Positions 2,457 through 22,159 of a DNA stretch of 64,000 nt are shown here, piece after piece (within the stretch, counting starts at the first letter, position 1; each line of letters begins with the position of its first letter). The stretch spans positions 186,001-250,000 of the forward strand of contig NZ_JAGHRO010000002.1 in NCBI RefSeq assembly GCF_017743735.1, given 5' to 3'. The notes beneath the pieces are model-generated. The model ran no database searches. It was not told the DNA's origin and saw nothing but the letters and a program-made list of their open reading frames with translations. Source of the stretch: Shimia sp. R9_2. Its GTDB lineage: Bacteria > Pseudomonadota > Alphaproteobacteria > Rhodobacterales > Rhodobacteraceae. The translations under genes and the position numbers were made by a program.

Positions 2457-3746
2457 ATGACCCCTCCTGTTTTGCTGCTTGGTCAGACCCTGTCTTTTGA
2501 CGCGAGCCCGTTTGAAACGCCAATTGAGAGCGCGGTGCGGCACCTGACCCATGGGGGCGTTTTGATACAGGGCGGCAAGATCGCCGCGGTTGGGGATGGC
2601 GCAGCGCTGAAGGCCGCCCATCCGGAGGCACAGGTGGTGGAGTATGGCGATCAGCTGATCTGTGCAGGCTTTGTGGATGCCCATGTGCATTACCCCCAGA
2701 CCGGGATCATCGCGAGCTGGGGCAAGCGGCTGATTGACTGGCTCAACAGCTACACCTTCCCCGAAGAGATGCGGTTCAAAGATCGCGCCTATGCGGATGA
2801 AATTGCCAAGACCTATCTTGATCTGACAGCCCGGCACGGTGTCACCACGATGGCGAGCTATGGCACCAGCCATCCGGAGTCGGTGGAGGCGTTTTTCAGC
2901 GAGGCCCAGCGCCGGGGGCAACGGGTTGTGGCGGGCAAGACCTGTATGGACCGCCATGCGCCTGACGGGCTGCGCGACACGCCGCAGAGCGCCTATGACG
3001 ACAGCAAGGCGCTGATTGAGAGGTGGCACGGTGTAAGCAGGATCAGCTATGCGATCACGCCGCGGTTTTCGCCAACCTCCACGCCCGAGCAGCTAGAGGC
3101 GCTTGGCGCGCTCTGGGCCGAGCATCCCGATTGCCTGATGCAGACCCACCTGAGCGAGCAGACCGATGAGATCGCCTGGGTGGGCGAACTGTTCCCTGAG
3201 GCGCGGGACTATCTTGATACCTATGAGCAGTTCGGCCTGCTGGATGCGCGCGGGCTTTATGGTCATGCGATCCACCTTGAGCCGCGAGAGAAAGACCGGC
3301 TGCGCGAGGTTGGCGCGGGTTTGATCCATTGCCCCACTTCCAACACGTTTATTGGCTCGGGGCTGTTTGACCTCAAAGGGCTGATGGCCCAAGGGCAGAA
3401 GATCGGGCTTGCCTCCGACACCGGCGGCGGGTCAAGCTTTTCCACGCTGCGCACCTTGGCGACGGCCTATGAGGTGGCACAGCTGCGCCACCACCCGCTG
3501 CATGCGGCCGAGCTGATGTGGCTGGCCACCCAAGGCTCCGCGCAGACCCTGCATATGGCCGATCAGATCGGCAATTTGGCGGCGGGTATGGAGGCTGACA
3601 TTGTGGTGCTGAACCTCGCCAGCACACCCGAGATTGCCCAACGCAGCGCGCGGGCAGAGGATCTCTGGGAAGCGCTCTTCCCGACCGTCATGATGGGAGA
3701 TGACCGCGCGATTGCGGCAACCTGGATTGGCGGAAAGCTCACCTAG
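2457..3746 (+). CDS. guaD: Guanine deaminase
   Basis: A 429-residue amidohydrolase that deaminates guanine to xanthine in purine catabolism. Metal-binding motifs are visible: HVH at residues 76-78 within FVDAHVHYPQT, a second His in QTHLSEQ, a third in YGHAIHL, and the Asp of GLASDTGGG. The FVDAHVHYPQ and SDTGGGSSFS versions fit guanine deaminase better than cytosine or atrazine hydrolases. The ATG at 2457 is chosen because GGAG lies 9 nt upstream and the next residues begin the family beta-strand; an ATG at 2427 would add ten residues with no better signal. It is a single gene divergent from mgtE. The 84 bases after it hold nothing recognised. Confidence 0.88.
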   Translation: MTPPVLLLGQTLSFDASPFETPIESAVRHLTHGGVLIQGGKIAAVGDGAALKAAHPEAQVVEYGDQLICAGFVDAHVHYPQTGIIASWGKRLIDWLNSYTFPEEMRFKDRAYADEIAKTYLDLTARHGVTTMASYGTSHPESVEAFFSEAQRRGQRVVAGKTCMDRHAPDGLRDTPQSAYDDSKALIERWHGVSRISYAITPRFSPTSTPEQLEALGALWAEHPDCLMQTHLSEQTDEIAWVGELFPEARDYLDTYEQFGLLDARGLYGHAIHLEPREKDRLREVGAGLIHCPTSNTFIGSGLFDLKGLMAQGQKIGLASDTGGGSSFSTLRTLATAYEVAQLRHHPLHAAELMWLATQGSAQTLHMADQIGNLAAGMEADIVVLNLASTPEIAQRSARAEDLWEALFPTVMMGDDRAIAATWIGGKLT

Positions 3747-3830
3747 GCTGAGCCTTCATTCTGCCAAAAATACTCTCGCCGAAGGCCTCCAATGGGGGCA
3801 ACCCTCCGCTGTGCCCTGCGGCTTATGCGA

Positions 3831-4070
3831 TCAAAACGCCTTAAACGTCAGCGTCGTCAGCGTGCGCTCGATGTTGGGAATGTCGAGCATGTGGCTGTTG
3901 ATGAACTTACCCACGTCTTCGCCTTCCGGAATATAGAGCTTCATCAGGAGGTCGTAGTCACCGCTGGTGGAATGCAGCTCGGAGTGGATTTCCTTCAGCG
4001 CAATCTCTTCGGCGACGCGGTAGGTGGTGCCGGGTTTGCAGCGGATCTGGATAAAGACGCAGGTGGTCAT
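3831..4070 (-). CDS. Stand-alone Lrp/AsnC ligand-binding (RAM) domain protein
   Basis: These 79 residues match only the effector-binding half of an Lrp/AsnC regulator: FIQIRCKPG, then SGDYDLLMKLYI and IPNIERTLTTLTFKAF. There is no helix-turn-helix, so it is not a DNA-binding regulator by itself. Such stand-alone RAM domains form oligomers, bind amino acids, and may modulate full-length Lrp proteins. GAGG lies about 8 nt before the ATG at 4070; an ATG four codons upstream is an alternative. It diverges from hisB with 135 bp between them. Confidence 0.82.
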   Translation of the reverse strand: MTTCVFIQIRCKPGTTYRVAEEIALKEIHSELHSTSGDYDLLMKLYIPEGEDVGKFINSHMLDIPNIERTLTTLTFKAF

Positions 4071-4205
4071 GAAGGCCCTCATTTGATTTGGCCTCAAACT
4101 GGCACAAATGCCACCTGCCTCACAATCTGAAAATCCGCCCCCTTGGCCTGCCCCCTGCCCGCCCCTATAAGGGCGCGGCAATACAGAGAGCGAAGGACGT
4201 CTCCC

Positions 4206-4793
4206 ATGCGCAAGGCAAGCGTGACCCGCGCCACCGCGGAAACCAAAATCACCGTGGACATCAATCTGGATGGCAGCGGCACCTATGACAACAAAACCGG
4301 TGTGGGCTTTTTTGACCATATGCTGGACCAGCTGTCGCGCCACAGCCTGATTGACATGACGATCCGCGCCGAGGGCGATTATCACATTGATGACCACCAC
4401 ACCGTTGAGGATGTGGGCATCACGCTGGGTCAGGCGCTGACGCAGGCGCTTGGTGACAAGAAAGGCATCCGCCGCTATGCCACCTGCCACCTGCCGATGG
4501 ATGATGCGCAGGTTCGGGCCGCGCTGGATCTCTCCGCGCGGCCTTTCCTGATCTGGAACCTTGAGATGCCAACCCAGAAGATCGGTTCCTTTGACACCGA
4601 GTTGGTGCGCGAGTTCTTCCAGGGGTTTGCGACCCATGGCGGCATCACCCTGCATGTGGACCAGATCCACGGGTTCAACAGTCACCATATCGCCGAAGCC
4701 GCCTTCAAAGCGGTGGCACGCGCGCTGCGCGAAGCGGTTGAGGTGGACCCGCGCAAGGCGGATGCGATCCCTTCGACCAAAGGTGCGCTCTGA
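4206..4793 (+). CDS. hisB: Imidazoleglycerol-phosphate dehydratase
   Basis: This enzyme carries out the sixth step of histidine synthesis, dehydrating imidazole-glycerol phosphate to imidazole-acetol phosphate. The 195-residue length is that of the single-function bacterial enzyme; there is no phosphatase domain. Manganese-binding motifs are present: [10 protein letters not shown], then HHTVEDVGI and [12 protein letters not shown]. The ATG at 4206 begins the family N-terminus [13 protein letters not shown] lies upstream at a rather long spacing. It is followed after 49 bp by hisH, probably in the same operon. Confidence 0.95.
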
Positions 4794-4842
4794 GAGCGCA
4801 CCCTACAGCTACGACTAAAAAAGACATTTAGAGGGTTCGCTT

Positions 4843-5481
4843 ATGCTGACAGCGATCATCGACTATGAATCCGGCAATCTGCACTCTGCCGAGAAAGCCT
4901 TCCAGCGCATGGCGACGGAGGTGGATGGCGGTGAGGTTGTGGTGACCTCTGACGCGAATGTGGTAGCCAAGGCAGATCGTCTTGTACTGCCCGGTGACGG
5001 AGCCTTTCCCGCCTGTGCGGCAGAGCTGCGCGGACACAAAGGCATTTATGACGCCATGGTGGAAGCGGTCGAAACCAAAGGCCGTCCGTTTCTGGGCATC
5101 TGCGTTGGCATGCAGCTGATGGCCAGCCGGGGCCATGAATATGAGCTGACCGAGGGACTGGGCTGGATCGAAGGCGATGTGAAACGCATCACGCCAGAAG
5201 ACAGTTCCCTAAAAGTGCCGCATATGGGTTGGAACAATCTGGTGATTGACCACCCGCACGCGCTGCTAGATGGGATCAAGAGCGGCGATCACACCTATTT
5301 TGTACACTCCTACCAATTCCACGTGACCAAGGCCGAGGAACGTCTGGCGCATGTGGACTATGGGGGCGACGTGACCGCGATCATTGGGCGCGATACGATG
5401 GTGGGCATGCAGTTCCACCCGGAGAAGAGCCAGGACATCGGTTTGCGGATGATTGGCAACTTCCTGAAGTGGGCGCCGTAA
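4843..5481 (+). CDS. hisH: Imidazole glycerol phosphate synthase, glutaminase subunit
   Basis: HisH (212 residues) hydrolyses glutamine and channels ammonia to HisF, which is encoded 4 kb downstream at 9711. The class I amidotransferase triad is visible: the nucleophile Cys in FLGICVGMQLM, and His and Glu in GMQFHPEKSQ. The N-terminal IIDYESGNLHS is typical. GAGG precedes the ATG at 4843 by 8 nt. It ends 39 bp from the convergent AraC gene; an 8-bp inverted repeat spans this junction (5482-5489 and 5524-5531) but has no U tract. Confidence 0.95.
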   Translation: MLTAIIDYESGNLHSAEKAFQRMATEVDGGEVVVTSDANVVAKADRLVLPGDGAFPACAAELRGHKGIYDAMVEAVETKGRPFLGICVGMQLMASRGHEYELTEGLGWIEGDVKRITPEDSSLKVPHMGWNNLVIDHPHALLDGIKSGDHTYFVHSYQFHVTKAEERLAHVDYGGDVTAIIGRDTMVGMQFHPEKSQDIGLRMIGNFLKWAP

Positions 5482-6348: not shown

Positions 6349-6885
6349 ATGCTCATTCCCCGCCAGAAGACCCCCGACCTGACATTGCCGCTTGTGGGCG
6401 GCGGCACGTTTGATTTGGCCAGTGAAGGCTCAGAGCGCGGCACTGTGGTGTGTTTTTACCGCGGTCTGCATTGCCCGATTTGCGCCAACTATCTGAAAGA
6501 GCTGGAAAAGCTGGTTGATGCTTTTGCCGAGCGCGGGGTGACCTGTGTGGCGGTCAGCAGCGATGGCGAGGAGCGCGCGGCAGAGATGGTGGAGAAGATT
6601 GAGGCCAAACGGTTGCGGTTTGCCTACGATCTGCCGCTGACCAAGGCCAAGGAATGGGGCCTCTACATCTCCACGTCGCGTGGCAAGACGTCAATCGGGA
6701 TTGAAGAACCGGCCCTTTTTTCCGAGCCCGGGCTGTTTATGGTGAGCCCTGAGCAGGCGCTTTACTACGGTTCTGTGCAGACCATGCCATTTGTGCGGCC
6801 GCATTTTTCGGAACTGGTGGGGGCGTTGGATTTTGCGATTGCCAACAACTATCCGGCGCGTGGCGAATACACAGGCGCGCTGTAA
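6349..6885 (+). CDS. Peroxiredoxin-like (AhpC/TSA family) protein
   Basis: A 178-residue thioredoxin-fold protein. FYRGLHCPICANYLKEL contains a CPIC motif (Cys42, Cys45) where classical peroxiredoxins have a single peroxidatic Cys after PVC, so it belongs to the peroxiredoxin-like/DUF899-like side branch and may be a thiol reductase or atypical peroxidase. No signal peptide is seen, so it is presumably cytosolic. AGGAG lies 7 nt before the ATG at 6349. The divergent AraC gene is the probable regulator, and a strong bidirectional terminator follows. Confidence 0.82.
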   Translation: MLIPRQKTPDLTLPLVGGGTFDLASEGSERGTVVCFYRGLHCPICANYLKELEKLVDAFAERGVTCVAVSSDGEERAAEMVEKIEAKRLRFAYDLPLTKAKEWGLYISTSRGKTSIGIEEPALFSEPGLFMVSPEQALYYGSVQTMPFVRPHFSELVGALDFAIANNYPARGEYTGAL

Positions 6886-6914
6886 AAACGGGCGCGTCCT
6901 CAAGCCTGAACCGC

Positions 6915-6950
6915 AAACAAAAAAGGCGCAGATTGCTCTGCGCCTTTCTC
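6915..6950. terminator. Bidirectional intrinsic terminator
   Basis: A perfect 11-bp stem (AAAGGCGCAGA, loop TTGC, TCTGCGCCTTT) at 6922-6947 has T-rich sequence on both flanks. It separates the convergent peroxiredoxin-like and DUF2147 genes. Confidence 0.85.
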
Positions 6951-6968
6951 TAACTGGTTCAGCCAAGA

Positions 6969-7361
6969 TCAGTTGATACGCGTCCAGTCTTGGCCGCGGC
7001 AGATAATGGCCACACAGCCTTTGACTGTGAGCGTATTGCCTTTGAGTGTCATTTTGGACTTGTAAGTTTTGTCCGCATCCGGCGCCCAGATTTTGCCTCC
7101 AGAATAGGCCCCACCACCATCTGCGCTCATGTCCCAGAGCATCTTTTTGCCCTGATGTTCATAGTTGGCAATGGCTTGGCCGCTGGCGTCAAAGGCCTTG
7201 TCAATATTTCCGCAAACAGCATTGCCGCAGGGCGCAATTTTCACGTGCAGGTAACCGCCAGTGTCACCGGGTTGGGTTTTCCAAGTGCCTGCAACAGGCT
7301 CTGCAAAGGCTGTTGTTGCGGCTGAAATCGCCATGGCCGCTGCCAAAAAAGTCTTTTTCAT
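6969..7361 (-). CDS. DUF2147 family secreted protein
   Basis: The 130 residues start with a signal peptide (MKKTFLAAAMAISAATTAFA, cleavage after AFA). The mature part fits DUF2147: GTWKTQPGDTGGYLHVKI, CGNAVCGNI, then GKIWAPDADKTYKSKMTL and TLTVKGCV. Members are periplasmic or secreted, probably lipocalin-like, with unknown function. GGGAGG precedes the ATG at 7361. The gene is monocistronic, facing away from hisA, and shares the terminator at 6915-6950. Confidence 0.85.
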   Translation of the reverse strand: MKKTFLAAAMAISAATTAFAEPVAGTWKTQPGDTGGYLHVKIAPCGNAVCGNIDKAFDASGQAIANYEHQGKKMLWDMSADGGGAYSGGKIWAPDADKTYKSKMTLKGNTLTVKGCVAIICRGQDWTRIN

Positions 7362-7528
7362 AGTTTCCTCCCATGCGTGTTGGGCAAAGACTGCGCGAGC
7401 GGGCGATTCCGATCAACACTGACTTTGGGTCACGCGGCGGTATTGACCAAGCCCAGCCGCGTTGCAATTTGAGCAAGACCGTGCCACACGCTTGGCCAAC
7501 AATCACTCAGACAAAACAGGGCCCGCTT

Positions 7529-8251
7529 ATGATCCTCTACCCGGCCATCGACCTCAAAGACGGCAATGCCGTGCGCCTGCTGCATGGCGACATGGACAAA
7601 GAAACCGTGTTCAACGAAAACCCCGCCGCGCAGGCGATGGAGTTTGTCAACGCGGGCTGTGAATGGCTGCATCTGGTGGATCTGAACGGCGCCTTTGCCG
7701 GAGAGCCGGTGAATGCCGCGCCGGTAGAAGAGATCCTGAAACAGACCAATGTGCCGGCCCAGCTGGGCGGCGGCATCCGCGATATGGCCACCATCGCGCG
7801 CTGGATCGACAAAGGCCTGAGCCGCGTGATCCTGGGCACCGTGGCGGTTGAGAACCCCGATCTGGTGCGCGAAGCGGCCAAGGAGTTCCCTGGCAAAGTG
7901 GCTGTGGGCATTGATGCGCGCAACGGCAAAGTGGCGACCAAAGGCTGGGCGGAAGAGACCGACGTGATGGTCACCGATCTGGCCAAATCCTTTGAAGACG
8001 CAGGTGTGGCGGCGATCATCTACACCGACATCATGCGCGATGGCGCAATGAAAGGCCCCAATGTGGAGGCCACCGCAGCGCTTGCGCAGGCTGTTTCGAT
8101 CCCGGTGATTGCCTCTGGTGGTGTGAGCTCTCTGGAAGACCTGCAGGCGCTCAAGGACTGTGGTGCCGCGCTGAACGGGGCGATTTCGGGCCGGGCGCTC
8201 TATGACGGGGCGATTGATCTGGCTGAGGCGCTGAAAGTTCTGAAGGCATGA
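7529..8251 (+). CDS. hisA: ProFAR isomerase
   Basis: A 240-residue (beta/alpha)8-barrel enzyme of histidine synthesis that isomerises ProFAR to PRFAR by an Amadori rearrangement. The N-terminal [16 protein letters not shown] carries the catalytic Asp, [11 protein letters not shown] and [13 protein letters not shown] bind the two phosphates, and [15 protein letters not shown] carries the second catalytic Asp. AGGG lies upstream of the ATG at 7529. Its last four bases (ATGA) contain the start of the next gene, so the two are translationally coupled. Confidence 0.95.
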
Positions 8252-8550
8252 GCCTGCGCCGCCGGATCACCTATGGCGGGCTGGGCCTGATATTGGCCCT
8301 CTCCCTGATCCCGGCGGCATATGTGTATTGGGCCCAAAGCACGGCGGAAAAACACGGCTGTGACTTTGGGCTGGCGCTCCAGCAGAACGGCTGCTGGGTG
8401 GAGGGCGTCAATATTGCCAGCCAGCTTAACGCGGCCTACTCCAAGGCGGGGCTTGTTGTGCTGACGCTGCCGATCGGATTTGTGGCGATGCTGGCCCTGA
8501 TCCTGATGATTGCCGCCGACCTGAGACGCTGCGCAGCCCCCAAGGCGTGA
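8248..8550 (+). CDS. Small membrane protein coupled to hisA
   Basis: I do not recognise this 100-residue protein. It has two hydrophobic segments (about residues 10-30, [20 protein letters not shown], and 66-92) with a short loop containing two Cys (KHGCDFG and NGCWVEG) that would face the periplasm and could form a disulphide. The start overlaps the hisA stop by four bases, which supports it being real and co-expressed with hisA. A link to histidine synthesis is not implied by its sequence. Confidence 0.75.
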
Positions 8551-8622
8551 CGATTGGTCCTCTGGCTTAAAAGCTCCCGCACTCCCAGATTTTGAGGTGA
8601 GGCGACGAAAAGGAGCTGCAAA

Positions 8623-9099
8623 ATGTTGGGCGTATTCACCAAAGTCAGCGCAGCGCAGCTGCCAGCGGACAGTCTGCTGCAGAGTCGCGTGGCAGAGGAC
8701 GACTTTCTGGATTGTTATCGTGCAAAATGCGCCCTGCCCGCACGTGTGGCGGCGGATGAAGTCACGCGTTTTCCGGACTGGGCCCAGGTGTTGGTGGCGC
8801 TGCGCAATAAGCTCGTGGCACCGCTGGGCCTCAAAGGTGCATCAGATGTCGAGGTGGCCCATGCGGGCGCGGATCATGTTGGCATTTTCCCGATTGAAGC
8901 GCAGAACGATCAGGAGGTGATCGCCGGGTTCAACGATCACCATCTGGATTTCCGTGTGTCGATCTACAGCACCGGAGAGCATGTCTATCTGTCAACATGG
9001 GTGCATCGGCACAATCTGACAGGCCGCCTGTATCTGGCGACGATCATGCCCTTTCACGTGCTGATCATACGAGATGCCCTTCGTCGGGTCGCGGGCTGA
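8623..9099 (+). CDS. DUF2867-like protein
   Basis: This 158-residue soluble protein, with no signal peptide or membrane segment, resembles DUF2867: an N-terminal YRAKCALP stretch, a central NDHHLDFRVSI motif and a C-terminal LATIMPFHVLIIRDAL. Its function is unknown. AAGGAG lies 7 nt before the ATG at 8623. It follows hisA and the small membrane gene in the same direction and interrupts the histidine locus. Confidence 0.72.
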   Translation: MLGVFTKVSAAQLPADSLLQSRVAEDDFLDCYRAKCALPARVAADEVTRFPDWAQVLVALRNKLVAPLGLKGASDVEVAHAGADHVGIFPIEAQNDQEVIAGFNDHHLDFRVSIYSTGEHVYLSTWVHRHNLTGRLYLATIMPFHVLIIRDALRRVAG

Positions 9100-15526: not shown

Positions 15527-15610
15527 GGGCGACAGGCCGCAAGGTGTGGCAGGGGACTGTAACTCCCTCGCGGAGACGCACGCTTGGTTCGATTCCAAGG
15601 TCGCCCACCA
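15527..15610 (+). tRNA. tRNA-Tyr (GTA), integration target
   Basis: The cloverleaf is complete: acceptor GGGCGAC with GTCGCCC, D arm with loop GG, anticodon arm GGGGA-CTGTAAC-TCCCT (anticodon GTA), a 14-nt variable arm with a GCG/CGC stem as expected for bacterial tRNA-Tyr, T arm CTTGG-TTCGATT-CCAAG, discriminator A and encoded CCA. Position 8 reads A where U is usual. The 3' part from 15593 lies inside the attL repeat, so integration keeps this copy intact. Confidence 0.88.
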
Positions 15611-15634
15611 CTTTCCATCTTATCAGTGACTTAG
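15593..15634 (+). repeat. attL: 42-bp direct repeat at the tRNA-Tyr 3' end
   Basis: These 42 bases, from TTCCAAGG in the tRNA T arm through CCA to TCAGTGACTTAG, are repeated without change at 22118-22159. The repeat starts inside the tRNA and runs 24 bases past it, as expected for the recombination core of an element integrated at a tRNA gene. Confidence 0.93.
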
Positions 15635-15650
15635 CATATGCTTTACCCCG

Positions 15651-15673
15651 GTGCGCCGCACAGGTGAGACACA
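15651..15673 (+). promoter_or_regulatory. Putative integrase arm sites, left end
   Basis: GTGAGACACA (15664-15673) is preceded 13 bp upstream by the related GTGCGCCGCA (15651, 7 of 10 matches). The same 10-mer occurs twice at the right end with the same 13-bp step. Their position just inside attL, directly before the integrase ATG, suggests integrase binding and possible autoregulation. Confidence 0.5.
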
Positions 15674-15674
15674 T

Positions 15675-17315
15675 ATGCGTCCTGCAAGTTACCTCAGCAC
15701 GTCCCGTCACGGCGTCTTCTACCTCCGCCTTCCAATCCCCCGTTCCGCCCATCCGGAGCGTCGTAGGACCGATCTCAAGGTCTCTTTGGCGACCCGCGAA
15801 CCAAGAGTGGCCGCGACACTTTCCCGCCTCCTCACTGTCTCTGGACAATCCGCTCTGGCTGCGGCATCCGCTCGCGGCATGCGCTATGATGAAATCCGGC
15901 ACCACGTCCAAGAATATCTGAAAGTCGCCCTCTCAAACTTCAGGGAAGGCATTGGTCAAGATGGGCCGATGGAGGGGCTGCACCTAACTGCTCTGCAGAA
16001 CAGCCTGTGGGCCTCAGAGATGCCGTTTGAGGAGTGGTGTGACACCATCGGTGCCGAAGGGGCTGAGCGCGCTCTTAGGTCGCTCTGTGAGGCCCGGGAC
16101 ATTGAACCCGATCTTACTGAAAAGACACGAACACTCATGTTGAAGGAGTTGCACAAGATGTGGCGCGCCTTCACTTCTCAGGCTGTGGCCCACAATCAGT
16201 CCTTTGACAGCCTACAGACCGAAGCCCCGCCCTCAACCACTGTGGCGGCTGTGCCTGCTCCTCCAGTCCCGACACCAACGACAATCCCAGCTGAACCTTT
16301 CTGGGACGTTGTGGATCGCTACATGCGGGAGAAAGATCGCTCTCAAGAATGGGCTGCAAAAACGCGCTCCGAGAAAACCGAAGCCCTCAACCTGCTGGCT
16401 GAGCTCACCGACAGCAAGCCTCTGGCAAGTCTGACCAAGGCTGACGCACGTGAGATCAAGGACATCCTGCAAAGGATGCCCAAGAACCGCAGCAAGAACC
16501 CTCAGACACGCGGTAAGCCTGTCAGGGACATCTTGGACATGAAAGGTATTGAGACGCCCACAGCGCGCACGGTGAACGTCTACATCGGCCATTACCAATC
16601 CCTTCTCGGCTGGGCGAAACTGAATGGCTACGTTGAGGAGAATGTTTTTGATGGCTTGCGCTTGAAGCTGAAGAACGCGACCTCGGAGCCCGCGAGAAAA
16701 GCCTTCAGCGAGGAGCAACTGAGCCGCCTGCACCATCATCTTACCATCAACCCAGACGGGCTTGTGAAGAAGCCAGAACATAAGTGGGTGACGTTGGTGG
16801 CGATGTACACAGGTGCGCGGCTCAACGAAGTTGCTCAACTGGACGTGTCCGATGTCAAAGACCTAAGCGGGATAGCCTGTATCGACATCACAACTGAAGG
16901 TAGCCCCAACAAGCGCCTCAAGAACGCATCGTCCAAACGTGTCATACCTATCCATGCCGATCTGATAGCATTGGGTTTCTTGGAGTTCGTTGAGCAACTC
17001 CGTGCCCGAGGTACAGTGCGTCTTTTTCCAGCACTCTCCTATTGCCCAAAGAATGGCTACGGGCGCAACGTTGGGAGATGGTTCGGCGATAGCTTCCTGC
17101 CGCGTCTTGGGATCGACGATGAAGCTTTAGTGTTCCACAGCCTTCGGCACACTATGAATACCCAGCTTGCCCGCAAAAATGTTCCCGAGCAGCTTCAGAA
17201 AGCCATTCTTGGTCACAAGCAGAACGGCATGACGTATGACACTTATTTCACCGCTGGGTTTCTGCCCGATCAGTTATACCCGGAGGTCAATAAGTTCCGA
17301 GCTATACCGGATTAG
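15675..17315 (+). CDS. int: Tyrosine recombinase/integrase
   Basis: This 546-residue integrase has an N-terminal DUF6538-like domain (MRPASYLSTSRHGVFYLRLP), a SAM-like core-binding domain (about residues 205-320) and a C-terminal catalytic domain. Catalytic residues are visible: Arg382 (YTGARLNEV), His488 and Arg491 (HSLRH), His514 (LGHK) and the nucleophile, probably Tyr524 (TYDTYF). The ATG at 15675 is preferred because it begins the family N-terminus; the frame runs eight codons further. It abuts attL and reads away from the tRNA. It should catalyse insertion and, perhaps with an unseen directionality factor, excision of the island. Confidence 0.93.
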   Translation: MRPASYLSTSRHGVFYLRLPIPRSAHPERRRTDLKVSLATREPRVAATLSRLLTVSGQSALAAASARGMRYDEIRHHVQEYLKVALSNFREGIGQDGPMEGLHLTALQNSLWASEMPFEEWCDTIGAEGAERALRSLCEARDIEPDLTEKTRTLMLKELHKMWRAFTSQAVAHNQSFDSLQTEAPPSTTVAAVPAPPVPTPTTIPAEPFWDVVDRYMREKDRSQEWAAKTRSEKTEALNLLAELTDSKPLASLTKADAREIKDILQRMPKNRSKNPQTRGKPVRDILDMKGIETPTARTVNVYIGHYQSLLGWAKLNGYVEENVFDGLRLKLKNATSEPARKAFSEEQLSRLHHHLTINPDGLVKKPEHKWVTLVAMYTGARLNEVAQLDVSDVKDLSGIACIDITTEGSPNKRLKNASSKRVIPIHADLIALGFLEFVEQLRARGTVRLFPALSYCPKNGYGRNVGRWFGDSFLPRLGIDDEALVFHSLRHTMNTQLARKNVPEQLQKAILGHKQNGMTYDTYFTAGFLPDQLYPEVNKFRAIPD

Positions 17316-17339: not shown

Positions 17340-18043
17340 TATGAGCTAACTGTATGATACCACAGCAACCCAAGGAGCACTGTCCAACATAAACGCCTCA
17401 GGTATTCTTGAGTTCTATTGGTTAGAAGTATTCTCTGTATACTCGACCACAGGAAATTCATTATTATATATTAATATCAATATTTTAAGTAGTAAAGTTC
17501 ACTTGTTGAATTTTCACATAGGTATCTTCATGCGATAACATTTTTTGGACCTAAGTATTTATACTAGCTGAGACAGATACCGAAACTGGTTCTGTCTAGG
17601 AACGGAGGGATAAGCCTCGGACCGAGGTTCATGGCCCATATGGTTCCCGTCGCTGTGGTCCGTCATGGCAAAAATGGGGCTGATGCCGGGCGGTCCCCAA
17701 ATACCGAAAGCAGACAGATACCGGGCGCAGAGGATTGACCATATTGGGATTGGCCACCCCGGACTGCAGCCATTGACGCGCCCCGGAGCGCCGCTCAGAG
17801 GCTCTGTCGGCAAGTCTCGGTCTCTGAGGCTCTGAAGATGCTCTCAAGCGCGTCTACGGTGCCCTAGCTTCCCCCTGCGAAACGGGCTTCCGGCTTCCCC
17901 CAAAAAAGCCCAAGTGCCAGCCCCGCGGCCGGAATACTCCCCCAAACATCAAGGCGATGCATCATCCATACATTCCCCTAAAGGTTGACAGAGTTGGCGG
18001 CTAGAGCGTTGAATACCTGCATTTCTTCCAAGTGGAATTTGTC
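17316..18043. other. Island intergenic region without a recognised gene
   Basis: The first 250 bases are very A/T-rich (for example around 17460-17500) and differ sharply from the host. The remainder has normal GC but no frame with believable codon use or motifs; the longest reading (17559-17813, minus) looks spurious. AGACAGATACCG occurs at about 17572 and again about 140 bp later, and GACAGA/TCTGTC can form a small hairpin there. It may hold remnants of lost cargo or a regulatory region for the next gene. Confidence 0.5.
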
Positions 18044-19384
18044 ATGCCCATTACTGATCTCCCCGAAAATGTCGTACAAGGCGACCAAGCTCGGCTCTTT
18101 CCGGTTCTCGCAACCACGTCGAAAGAAGGGCGCACCACGGCCATAGTGCTTTCCTGCCTGAGTTTGGTTAGGGAGTTTGGCGCGACCCTTCTTGGCGGAG
18201 TTGGACAAAAGCTGGGCACAAGGGCCAAGGTCAGCACTTATACAGAAGTCGTTTTTAAGAGCCAGACAGGCAAGTCGGGTGATAGACCAGACGGCCTCAT
18301 CGTTGTCAAAGTCGGCTCGCGAGAGTGGAAGGCTTTGGTAGAAGCCAAGGTTGGAAACTCAGACCTCGATGCTGATCAGATAGAACGCTATCGGACTTTG
18401 GCAAAAGAGAATGGCATCGACTGCGTCATCACCATATCAAACCAATTCGCAACCTCTCCTGATGCTCACCCTATTGAAGACGTGCGTAAGAGCCGCTCAA
18501 AGATACCTGTCTACCATTGGTCTTGGATGCATGTCCTCACCACTGCCGATCTGCTGTTGAATACCGAAAGCGTTGATGACGACGACCAGACATTCTTGCT
18601 GCATGAGCTTCACCGCTTCCTGAGCCATGAGAGCGCAGGCGTCAAAGGCTTCGATAAGATGCCGAAGGCTTGGACAGAGCTCAACAGGCTGGTCTCCAGC
18701 GGTGGGGTCATTCCCGCACGGTCACCCGAAGCCAAAGAAGTGATCTATGCTTGGCACCAAGAGACGCGAGACCTGACCTTAATATTGAGCCGCATGACGG
18801 AGACCATTGTGCTAGAAAAGCTTCCTCGGAAGCACCAGAGCGATCCAGCACTGAGGCAGAAGGATGAACTCACTGATCTTAAAGATAACTGCCGCTTATC
18901 CGTTTCACTCAGCGTGCCTGACGCCGCTGCGAATGTGGATGTCACAGCCGACCTTATGCGTCGCACTGTCGAGGTGGGAATGAGCCTGCGCGCCCCGGAT
19001 GACAAGAAAACCACAAAGGCCCGGGTGAACTGGCTACTACGTCAGATAAAGACTGAGGACACGACAGACCTACATGTGAGATTGTTATGGCCCGGAGCTA
19101 GCGAGCCAACGCAACACCTCGTCTCAGACCTGAGTGAGAATGTGGAACTGTGCAACGAGGGCAAGGAGCATCTCGTTGCTCATGGCTTTCATGTGTTCCA
19201 CAGCAAGAGGCTGGGTGGACGCTTCACACAGCAGAGCAACTTTATCGCTGACCTTGAAGCCATCGTGCCCGATTTCTACGGCACCGTGGGATCAGAACTC
19301 AAAGCATGGCAACGCCCAGCGCCGCGCATCAAACACTCGGATGATCTACAAGAAACCGGAAGCGCCGGAGAGGCGGCAGAGTGA
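18044..19384 (+). CDS. Unrecognised protein with a PD-(D/E)XK nuclease-like core
   Basis: I cannot name this 446-residue protein. Its first 130 residues show a restriction-endonuclease-like pattern: Glu68 (TYTEVVF), Asp83 (DRPDGLIVV), the pair Glu100-x-Lys102 (ALVEAKVG) and Gln112 (DADQIERY), which would be a PD-(D/E)XK metal site. The rest is a long charged region without known motifs, perhaps a recognition domain. A nuclease role is inferred from this pattern only. The ATG at 18044 is preferred over a GTG at 18032; ribosome signals are weak for both. It lies alone between the integrase and the serine recombinase, and such proteins are common in defence islands. Confidence 0.75.
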   Translation: MPITDLPENVVQGDQARLFPVLATTSKEGRTTAIVLSCLSLVREFGATLLGGVGQKLGTRAKVSTYTEVVFKSQTGKSGDRPDGLIVVKVGSREWKALVEAKVGNSDLDADQIERYRTLAKENGIDCVITISNQFATSPDAHPIEDVRKSRSKIPVYHWSWMHVLTTADLLLNTESVDDDDQTFLLHELHRFLSHESAGVKGFDKMPKAWTELNRLVSSGGVIPARSPEAKEVIYAWHQETRDLTLILSRMTETIVLEKLPRKHQSDPALRQKDELTDLKDNCRLSVSLSVPDAAANVDVTADLMRRTVEVGMSLRAPDDKKTTKARVNWLLRQIKTEDTTDLHVRLLWPGASEPTQHLVSDLSENVELCNEGKEHLVAHGFHVFHSKRLGGRFTQQSNFIADLEAIVPDFYGTVGSELKAWQRPAPRIKHSDDLQETGSAGEAAE

Positions 19385-19444: not shown

Positions 19445-20119
19445 TCACAGAGGCTCTTGGGGCACGTCCAATCGGTCCAAAGTGCGTTTGATCTGCGACG
19501 CCTGCCATCGACCGCCCCGAGCGGTTACAACGCCTGCTGTGTTGAGGTGTTCTGCTATCTCTCTCAATGACTTACCAGCATCGCGCAAAGGTATGATCAG
19601 TCCTGCGACCTTCTCTGCCCGGGCTCTTGCGTTGGCCTTGACGGCATCGTTGCGCTTCATGGTCTTGTCTCTCAAACCACCCAGCTTTGTGCCACGTGCT
19701 TTTGCCTCCGACAGTGCCGCCTTGGTACGTTCTGAGATGAAGGCGCGCTCTTGCTCTGCCAATGCCGCATAGATGTGAAGCTGAAAGTTGTCGGCATTGG
19801 GCATCTGGGCAACTCGGAAGGTGACCTTCTTGTCTTCCATGAGGGCGGCGATGACAGACACCTTACGTGACAGCCTATCCAACTTACTGACGAGGAGAAT
19901 GGCTCCGGTCTGTCGCGCCAAAGTCAAGGCTGCATCTAGCTCTGGTCTAGTGTTGTCAGCACCGCTCAGGACATCGGTAAAGGTGCCTACCACTTCATAG
20001 GGTGCCGGACTGAACCGCTCCAAGTACAAGTCGATGTCGCGCTCTTGGGCATCCAAGCCTAAGCCACTGCGCCCCTGCTCCTTGGTGCTGACACGCTTGT
20101 AGATGATGTATTGCTGCAT
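19445..20119 (-). CDS. Small serine recombinase (resolvase/invertase family)
   Basis: A 224-residue serine recombinase. The catalytic Ser11 sits in [21 protein letters not shown], the active-site Arg and Asp are in [13 protein letters not shown], and the long E helix ([19 protein letters not shown]) is clear. A helix-turn-helix follows at the C-terminus ([14 protein letters not shown]...[12 protein letters not shown]). The size and domain order fit resolvases and invertases, not large serine integrases. The ATG at 20119 begins the family N-terminus; 14 codons upstream remain open. Inverted repeats lie just upstream (20166-20222). Its role beside a tyrosine integrase is unclear: resolution, inversion or a nested older element. 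Confidence 0.9.
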
Positions 20120-20165
20120 GACCGTTGGCCCTACCCTGTCTTTAGAGGTCAAGGTAAGCACCTAC

Positions 20166-20309: not shown

Positions 20310-21278
20310 CTACCAGTCGACAAAGTCAAGGATGCTATCCAAGTGAACGACCTCGACATCGTTCTTGAGTTTGTCTCGCCAGTAGGCCAACCTGTCATTG
20401 TCGGGCTGTGACCCGCTCCACTCCACCACACGCACATGTTTGTTTGTGCACCTACTTGCTAGCTGATTGTTGAGATGAGTGTCATAGCCAGAGTAACCAA
20501 AGAGCACGACCTCACTGCTCTCCTTCAAAGCCTTACCCAAGAAGCGCCAATACTCTGACAATAAACTTGATGCAGAAATGATAGCGGTCTTATGCCTTAC
20601 ATGAGTGAGAACTAAGTGGGTGCTGTCAACCTGCTCGCCAATGAGTTGGTGCCTCCGAAACTTTTTGATACGTCCGTTTGGTGCATCATAGAATAGAGGT
20701 GAGCCATGCAGGTGTAGATACCAACCAAGCCTGTCGGGGTTTTTCCTCATCATGTTGTTTTTGGAGAACCCGGTCCGTGTCATACCGTCTATTAGGTCAC
20801 CGTTGTACCCACGCAGAACATGCGAACCGAGAAACGCTTCGTATAGCAGAGGATCGTAGTTAAGTGTCGCCACGTGCGATTTCGTTTCATGGATGAAATC
20901 AGTGAGGGGCTCAACAAACTCATATGGCAATTCCTCTCCGGTATCGTGAAAGCAGCATGCAACCTGATGCACGAACTTTCGGATCGAAGACGGAAACTCT
21001 CTACCGTGCTCTGAAAGCCAGTGCGCATCGTCCTCTAGCTCAATACCATCTAGGAAATCGCACGAAGCCAAAACACGCTGCAGGACATACAAGTCCTCCT
21101 CGCTGCTGGGTCTCTCATACTCTGTGTCTTCGGGAAGACAGGCGCGGATCATTCCTTTCTGAGCATCAGAAAGGATGTCATCCTCCCACACACTAGCAAG
21201 CGCATTGTCGAGAGAAAACAACTCAGGCGACAGGCCCATACCCAGCCCATTGCCGAAGATCAACGTCTTACGGGTCAT
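20310..21278 (-). CDS. SIR2-like (divergent sirtuin-fold) protein
   Basis: The 322 residues follow the order of SIR2_2/DUF4917-type proteins: a glycine-rich N-terminal nucleotide loop (LIFGNGLGMGLSPELF, residues 6-21), THVATLNYD-like ATLNYD with Asn140 and Asp142, LHLHGSPLF with His191 as candidate catalytic base, and LFGYSGYDTHLN (residues 259-270). No zinc site and no membrane segment are seen. SIR2 domains in bacterial defence systems cleave NAD+ during phage infection; that this one does is inference. It starts inside the stop codon of the upstream gene (TAATG), so the pair is translationally coupled. Assignment to SIR2 is probable, not certain. Confidence 0.8.
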   Translation of the reverse strand: MTRKTLIFGNGLGMGLSPELFSLDNALASVWEDDILSDAQKGMIRACLPEDTEYERPSSEEDLYVLQRVLASCDFLDGIELEDDAHWLSEHGREFPSSIRKFVHQVACCFHDTGEELPYEFVEPLTDFIHETKSHVATLNYDPLLYEAFLGSHVLRGYNGDLIDGMTRTGFSKNNMMRKNPDRLGWYLHLHGSPLFYDAPNGRIKKFRRHQLIGEQVDSTHLVLTHVRHKTAIISASSLLSEYWRFLGKALKESSEVVLFGYSGYDTHLNNQLASRCTNKHVRVVEWSGSQPDNDRLAYWRDKLKNDVEVVHLDSILDFVDW

Positions 21279-21886
21279 TAGCTTACGTCCGCTATCAAAT
21301 TTGCAATGGTGCTGGCGTCGCTTCGCAGAATAGCCCGTGTAGTATTGGACACAGACTTCTCCCCGGTTCTGCTTCCATTGGTGAGGTTAGCAAGTGCGAA
21401 AGTGCTGTTGGCAAGTGCGGTGCTTCGGTAGCACTCGCGCAGCAATAAACAGCCGACAGCGGCGTACTTTCTTTGGAGCTGTGGAGTTCTTGCAGCCCAA
21501 ATCGAATGCACCCAGCTGGTGTCCTTCTCAAGTGTTAGGAAGAGCGGATCGCAGGCAATCGATATATTGTGTCCGGGAATTTCGTATGTGCGCGGCCTCT
21601 TAATGGCTTCGATCTTGCGTTTGCTGGCATATCTCTCAGAAAATCCTTGGTACGCGGCTGTGTTGTACTCGCGCTCAACTGCATTAGTGGGCGATTGCAA
21701 TATATCGTCGACTACATCGCTACTCTCACCTGCAAGATGAGCCCGGATGGCTCGCGTTAAGCTCTGATAGAAGTTATAGCTCGCTCCACCGTTTATCTTC
21801 TTGTCAATGGCGGCAATCTTCTGGTCGGTGTCCAACTGACAAAGGCGAATGAAAGAAGATAGCGTGAACACTTGAATTGTAGCCAT
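21278..21886 (-). CDS. Unrecognised partner protein of the SIR2-like gene
   Basis: I do not recognise this 202-residue soluble protein. It has an N-terminal helical half (residues about 1-70, with TDQKIAAIDKKINGG) and a basic centre (RYASKRKIEAIKRPRTYEIPG), then a likely mixed alpha/beta part with Trp and Cys (SWVHSIWAA, GCLLLRECYR). No transmembrane segment is seen. The start at 21886 is chosen because GGAGGA lies right before it; an ATG at 21937 has no ribosome site and would fall at the predicted transcription start. The stop shares a base with the SIR2-like start, so the two form one operon and probably one system, for example as sensor or regulator and effector. Confidence 0.72.
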   Translation of the reverse strand: MATIQVFTLSSFIRLCQLDTDQKIAAIDKKINGGASYNFYQSLTRAIRAHLAGESSDVVDDILQSPTNAVEREYNTAAYQGFSERYASKRKIEAIKRPRTYEIPGHNISIACDPLFLTLEKDTSWVHSIWAARTPQLQRKYAAVGCLLLRECYRSTALANSTFALANLTNGSRTGEKSVSNTTRAILRSDASTIANLIADVS

Positions 21887-21946
21887 TGGTCCTCCGACAA
21901 ACCGCTTTAGCGGCTCTGTGATCGAATGCTTAGTCATATCTAGGAA

Positions 21947-22117: not shown

Positions 22118-22159
22118 TTCCAAGGTCGCCCACCACTTTCCATCTTATCAGTGACTTAG
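22118..22159 (+). repeat. attR: 42-bp direct repeat
   Basis: An exact copy of 15593-15634. Here only the 3' piece of the tRNA (T arm to CCA) is present, preceded by unrelated island DNA, so it marks the far end of the element. Host sequence resumes at about 22160. Confidence 0.93.

Follow-up and report, generated by a model that had tools for sequence, protein, structure and literature searches.

The two genes at the far end of a mobile element in the window (the whole 64,000-nucleotide stretch of Shimia sp. R9_2 DNA analysed here) may together form an anti-phage cassette, in which a SIR2-like protein would act as an NAD-consuming effector and a 202-aa protein as its regulator or sensor. We give this reading a probability of about one half. 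In the mechanism that we propose, the SIR2-like protein would destroy NAD upon infection, and the 202-aa protein would hold or switch it by direct contact. The two genes are probably translationally coupled, and some relatives of the small protein may play the same role for effectors of the dGTPase, dCTP deaminase and ThsB-type TIR classes.

The element that carries the pair is about 6.5 kb in size and lies between two perfect 42-bp direct repeats (Table 1). An earlier note, made from the letters of this DNA, had placed the genes in an integrase island, which the repeat at tRNA-Tyr, the integrase and the base composition all confirm: GC is 53% in the island vs 58.6 and 59.6% in its flanks, and about 50% in the SIR2-like and small genes. 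In the one genome of the same genus that we examined (G210), the tRNA-Tyr region was matched and no element was present there; 173 bp of the SDR gene, which in the window comes after the right repeat, were matched at 70% identity 4.3 kb beyond that region, with two ORFs of about 610 aa each in between. Besides its tyrosine integrase the element also houses a serine recombinase on the minus strand. Its 450-aa cargo protein, which matched no family above cut-off, contains a D...EAK motif that by eye resembles a PD-(D/E)XK nuclease.

Table 1. Features of the tRNA-Tyr element and of the two-gene unit, in window coordinates.
Feature	Position	Strand	Evidence or remark
tRNA-Tyr	15527-15610		3' end overlapped by left repeat
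Left attachment repeat, 42 bp	15593..15634	+	perfect copy of 22118-22159; overlaps tRNA-Tyr 3' end
Tyrosine integrase of element	15651..17315	+	Pfam Phage_integrase 5.7e-13
450-aa cargo, possible PD-(D/E)XK nuclease-like	18032..19384	+	VRR_NUC E 0.13, below cut-off
Serine recombinase	19445..20161	-	Pfam Resolvase 1.3e-25
SIR2-like effector (predicted), 322 aa	20310..21278	-	Pfam SIR2_2 5.8e-8
TAATG stop/start junction	21276..21280	-	sequence; translational coupling predicted
202-aa partner protein	21278..21886	-	1-nt overlap with SIR2-like start; L037 homologue; family profile
Right attachment repeat, 42 bp	22118..22159	+	perfect copy of 15593-15634

Both reading frames described in the earlier note are present with the one-base overlap that it reported: in the junction sequence, AGCTAATGACC, one base belongs both to the small gene's stop codon, TAA, and to the ATG that starts the SIR2-like gene. 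For the small gene, the start at 21886 (202 aa) is preferred over that at 21937 (219 aa) because a GGAGG lies just 5' of it and the alignment with the closest homologue begins at that Met. The promoter that had been proposed for the pair exists as a motif, TTGACC-16-TAGAGT, located 5' of the small gene, but such sites occur at chance level (3 found vs 2.0, sd 1.5, expected in shuffled sequence). The proposed weak terminator did not hold up, as the sole terminator-like site on the minus strand is inside the SIR2-like gene and none is found 3' of that gene on its strand; 3 such sites were found in all vs 1.8 (sd 1.1) expected.

The SIR2-like identity of the larger protein is upheld by the profile search that the earlier note had suggested, with SIR2_2 (PF13289) scoring 33.4 bits vs a curated Pfam cut-off of 24.5, while the other profile named there, DUF4917 (PF16263), gave no match at E 1. 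Among five relatives scanned, three exceeded the SIR2_2 cut-off and two fell below it, and two relatives gave sub-threshold matches to DUF4917 (E 0.044 and 0.0034). Two PADLOC models, PDC-S21 (2.5e-7) and Aga_SIR2 (1.1e-6), matched the window protein weakly. The catalytic residues that had been pointed out, Asn140, Asp142 and His191, are invariant together with the loop FGNGLG in an alignment of 36 rows (the window and 35 of 51 loci, 39 of these from genome contigs and 12 from viral contigs), so the divergent nucleotide loop, also remarked on earlier, is a trait of the family itself. A homologue outside this alignment (L006, 1471-2580), broken-looking with an in-frame stop, has the loop IGNGVG, and another broken-looking homologue (L045, 8001-9007) has a split frame. 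When the 36-row profile was compared with the sequences of solved structures, four matches were obtained at E 0.1, three of them designed proteins. The sole natural protein among the four was the SIR2-like chain 8w9l, which we take to be the SIR2-HerA enzyme; it ranked second (E 0.0065) after a designed protein, and the match spans residues 128-284, the catalytic region.

Homologues of the SIR2-like protein were found at 39 loci in genome contigs, mostly of Proteobacteria with one each in Chloroflexota and Nitrospinota, as well as in 12 viral contigs and one plasmid. They occur in 4 of 295 host-family genomes, own genome included. In E. coli, 45 of 5426 genomes carry the gene, and the single context opened there shows it alone within a prophage, next to dicB and YdaT-type genes. 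Deposited phage records yielded no homologue by tblastn at E 1e-3. The SIR2_2 match, the invariant catalytic residues, the occurrence of homologues on mobile DNA (the viral-contig loci and the E. coli prophage) and the att-flanked element in the window all favour the two-gene cassette.

We then asked how far the pair travels as a unit. The neighbourhood survey outlined in the earlier note found the pair once more, and most SIR2 homologues lack the small gene: it is present at one of 55 SIR2 homologue loci (L004-L058), which represent at most 53 places (L005 and L043 are the same place, as are L007 and L044) and include many viral-contig rows that are near copies and some loci with short upstream flanks (L047, L054). 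At that locus, L037 in Erythrobacter (phmmer 8.6e-21), the small gene comes immediately before the SIR2 homologue and overlaps it by 4 nt, in the same order as in the window. We therefore rejected the idea of a small gene confined to this genome and, given the count of 1/55, also that of a partner dedicated to this SIR2 family. The small proteins of the window and of L037 group together with support of 92/86, which falls below the tool's 95/80 mark, on long branches and with the bootstrap not settled; the SIR2 tree does not settle whether the two enzymes are neighbours. Recurrence in Erythrobacter and this grouping are further points in favour of the cassette.

Only at two of the 55 loci, L037 and L036, does an ORF of 100 aa or more lie upstream and run into the SIR2 start, which tells against the cassette. 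In the latter (Limnohabitans, 2845-4898) it encodes a different protein of 355 aa, with a 4-nt overlap and by eye an HNH-like end. At several other loci a gene on the same strand lies 37-50 nt upstream and appears by eye to be unrelated: a DHFR-like gene at L014, an H-NS-like gene in the Pseudomonas prophage group (such as L020 and L048), and a nicotinate phosphoribosyltransferase-like gene (NAD salvage) at L041, L042 and L045. At these last three loci (about 6568-9023) the SIR2 homologue follows that gene at 43-47 nt.

Judged by sequence comparison, the 202-aa protein is a member of an unnamed protein family. A window-type branch of 4 proteins and a branch of 7 proteins around query A6 (A6-type) were joined by hhalign with a probability of 93.4 (E 2.5e-7, 171 columns), and the profile score of 53.0 compares with 17.6 for the best of 60 column shuffles and 14.3 for the reversed profile. 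The two SIR2-linked small proteins alone did not match the family significantly (E 0.012, probability 3.6), and the family link therefore leans on L059 and L061. This result, and the identity of only 11-17% between the window protein and 12 A6-type proteins, weigh against the two-gene cassette. No member scanned matched a described family at cut-off in Pfam (window, L037, L059 and seven A6 members), PADLOC (window, L037, L059, L061, L062), PHROGs (window, L037) or NCBIfam (window protein only), and a sequence search against solved structures returned one chance-like match (E 1.3). As candidate relatives of the window small protein, CPT (E 0.12, below the CPT cut-off) and an MTase (E 0.046) were rejected.

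Counting the query's own genome where drawn, the window small protein was found in 2 of 295 host-family genomes at E 0.01, own genome included, the second match (G023) being weak (E 0.008) with two stops in frame. Other members used as queries were found in 2/385 (A3) and 4/385 (A8) genomes of the class, in 3/398 genomes of the phylum (A4; the third at E 2.9e-4) and in 7/219 genomes of another alphaproteobacterial family (A6). The A6-type branch also extends to 13 plasmid records (12 of which were opened, H11 being left out), one viral contig and one phage record. Homologues of the window type were absent from plasmids and none was confirmed in viral contigs, and the window small protein, as sole query, had no homologue in phages. 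In Methylobacterium-group plasmids (L067, L072, L096-L098) the small gene is near ParA and recombinase genes, and on two of these plasmids a RelE/ParE-type toxin is close by as well. By eye, a GFA-like (CxCGAV) protein gene was noticed close to the small gene in L059, L078 and L087, three genomes that belong to different families.

To describe what adjoins the family, we took as a neighbour any same-strand ORF of at least 100 aa, measured the gap, and called it tight within 50 nt. The resulting count is one of raw adjacency at 20 loci, a small sample from searches that favour close relatives. It leaves out a broken copy (L068), two loci where only the C-terminal part was matched (L080, L086), near copies of counted plasmid loci (L071, L097-L099) and duplicates of counted loci (L002, L059, L061, L064, L074-L078, L088, L089). 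Seven of the 20 loci have a tight neighbour and 13 have none. The neighbours are SIR2 genes in the window (gap -1 nt) and at L037 (-4 nt), a dGTPase at L062 (32 nt; PADLOC 8.1e-139), a dCTP deaminase at L084 (-14 nt; PADLOC dCTPase 1.7e-142 plus a Pfam deaminase domain), a ThsB-type TIR at L065 (17 nt; 4e-121), an 8xMP-like membrane protein at L082 (38 nt; just under its cut-off), and at L083 a doubtful 106-aa ORF antisense to a longer one. Five of the seven are nucleotide- or NAD-directed effectors, and the small gene precedes the effector in four of these five pairs. The partners change even among close relatives: the small proteins of L062, L065, L073 and L082 share 62-72% mutual identity, yet have a dGTPase, a ThsB, nothing and an 8xMP beside them. 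Among the loci without a tight neighbour, L079 is cut by a contig end, the viral contig L073 has the small gene between terminase and portal genes (by eye), and the Synechococcus phage record L081 also has ParA and RepA-like genes.

Two loci may be mentioned here. In L082 (6129-8151) the small gene is followed by genes for the 8xMP-like membrane protein, a DUF4406-like protein and an HNH endonuclease, possibly as a larger defence locus. In L063 (7791-8441) a divergent family member lies 256 nt after a long ribonucleotide reductase-like ORF (by eye).

The family profile score, the tight dGTPase, dCTPase and ThsB neighbours and the differing neighbours of the small proteins that share 62-72% identity favour the two-gene cassette. 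We also put forward, tentatively, the broader proposal that the 202-aa protein represents a new sensor or regulator family common to SIR2 NADase, dGTPase, dCTP deaminase and TIR/ThsB effectors. The suggestion in the earlier note that the small protein senses phage or regulates the effector is strengthened by some relatives placed tightly beside anti-phage effectors and weakened by its presence at 1/55 SIR2 loci and by the 13/20 family loci without a neighbour, counts that also tell against the cassette as a whole. So does the tendency of defence genes to cluster.

In a rival account the SIR2-like protein would be a self-sufficient exclusion protein, sensing phage and depleting NAD alone, and the small gene would be an independent defence or accessory neighbour. 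We consider it somewhat unlikely. It would accommodate the 54 of 55 SIR2 homologue loci that lack the small gene, the lone prophage gene in the E. coli context, and the viral contig and phage record where the small gene has no tight partner; it sits poorly with the overlapping junctions in the window and L037, with the grouping of their small proteins, and with the predominance of nucleotide- or NAD-directed effectors among the tight neighbours of the wider family. Since the junctions overlap, a plug-in control module is favoured over an independent defence gene, whereas the occurrence of solitary small-family copies favours an independent defence gene or a dual role.

A toxin-antitoxin or addiction pair seems to us improbable. 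Here the SIR2-like protein would be a toxin (NADase or ADP-ribosyltransferase) that the small protein neutralises, stabilising the element, as might be expected from a small gene that comes first, an overlapping junction, a mobile location, and plasmid-borne family relatives near partition genes; the portions of PMC9503650 available to us describe a sirtuin type-II toxin-antitoxin-like pair with a Macro-domain partner. However, the SIR2 homologue does without the small protein at 54/55 loci, which disfavours a strictly required antitoxin, and most small-family loci (13/20) have no tight partner. For the 202-aa protein we favour the role of a regulator or sensor of an anti-phage effector; gene order, overlapping ends and varying partners are consistent with it.

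For the control and triggering of defence proteins of the dGTPase, dCTP deaminase and small SIR2 kinds, Clover is to our knowledge one solved case. With members of about 200 aa placed directly next to each of these effector classes, the small-protein family is a specific candidate for a control step that they share. If the proposal is true, one sensing module would be plugged into interchangeable enzymes that starve the phage, and the SIR2 family, which is widespread and elsewhere mostly lacks the small gene, would gain a partnered form.

Assignment to Thoeris, SIR2-HerA, DSR or Clover was rejected, their defining partners or domains not having been found; Thoeris and SIR2-HerA are ruled out because of the partner and DSR-type systems because of length. 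The earlier observation that no partner from a known SIR2 system is recognisable holds among the five element proteins scanned. DSR1/DSR2, AVAST SIR2 and SIR2-pAgo have SIR2 domain effectors; the window differs in that no long sensor domain, STAND or Argonaute partner was found among the element proteins scanned, and a protein of 322 aa in all is without the long C-terminal sensor domain of DSR2-type proteins. Thoeris (ThsA SIR2-SLOG and ThsB TIR) resembles the window in pairing a SIR2 effector with a separate partner, and one small-family relative (L065) is 17 nt from ThsB, but the 322-aa protein matches SIR2_2 only, with no SLOG, and no TIR was found among the element proteins scanned. Defence proteins of the dGTPase and dCTP deaminase kinds resemble effectors found beside small-family relatives, and those that we know of are described as acting without a partner from this family.

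SIR2-HerA (Nezha) is, in the portions of PMC11559045 available to us, a two-gene SIR2-like anti-phage pair that depletes NAD. The window likewise has two genes with a SIR2-like protein that would deplete NAD, and 8w9l was matched by the SIR2 profile, but no HerA ATPase was found among the five element proteins scanned and the partner is an unrelated 202-aa protein. The list of sirtuin systems in PMC9503650, as far as it was available, has none with a partner of the 202-aa type, and we recognised no description of the pair or of the small family in the accessible portions of the open-licence literature. In Clover, according to the available portions of PMC12265719, the dGTPase CloA is restrained by a partner enzyme, the nucleotidyltransferase CloB. 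The small-family members scanned differ in giving no Pfam nucleotidyltransferase match and in the variety of their effectors; with a regulatory partner beside a dGTPase, Clover, as described there, is the nearest analogue in logic to the arrangement that we propose.
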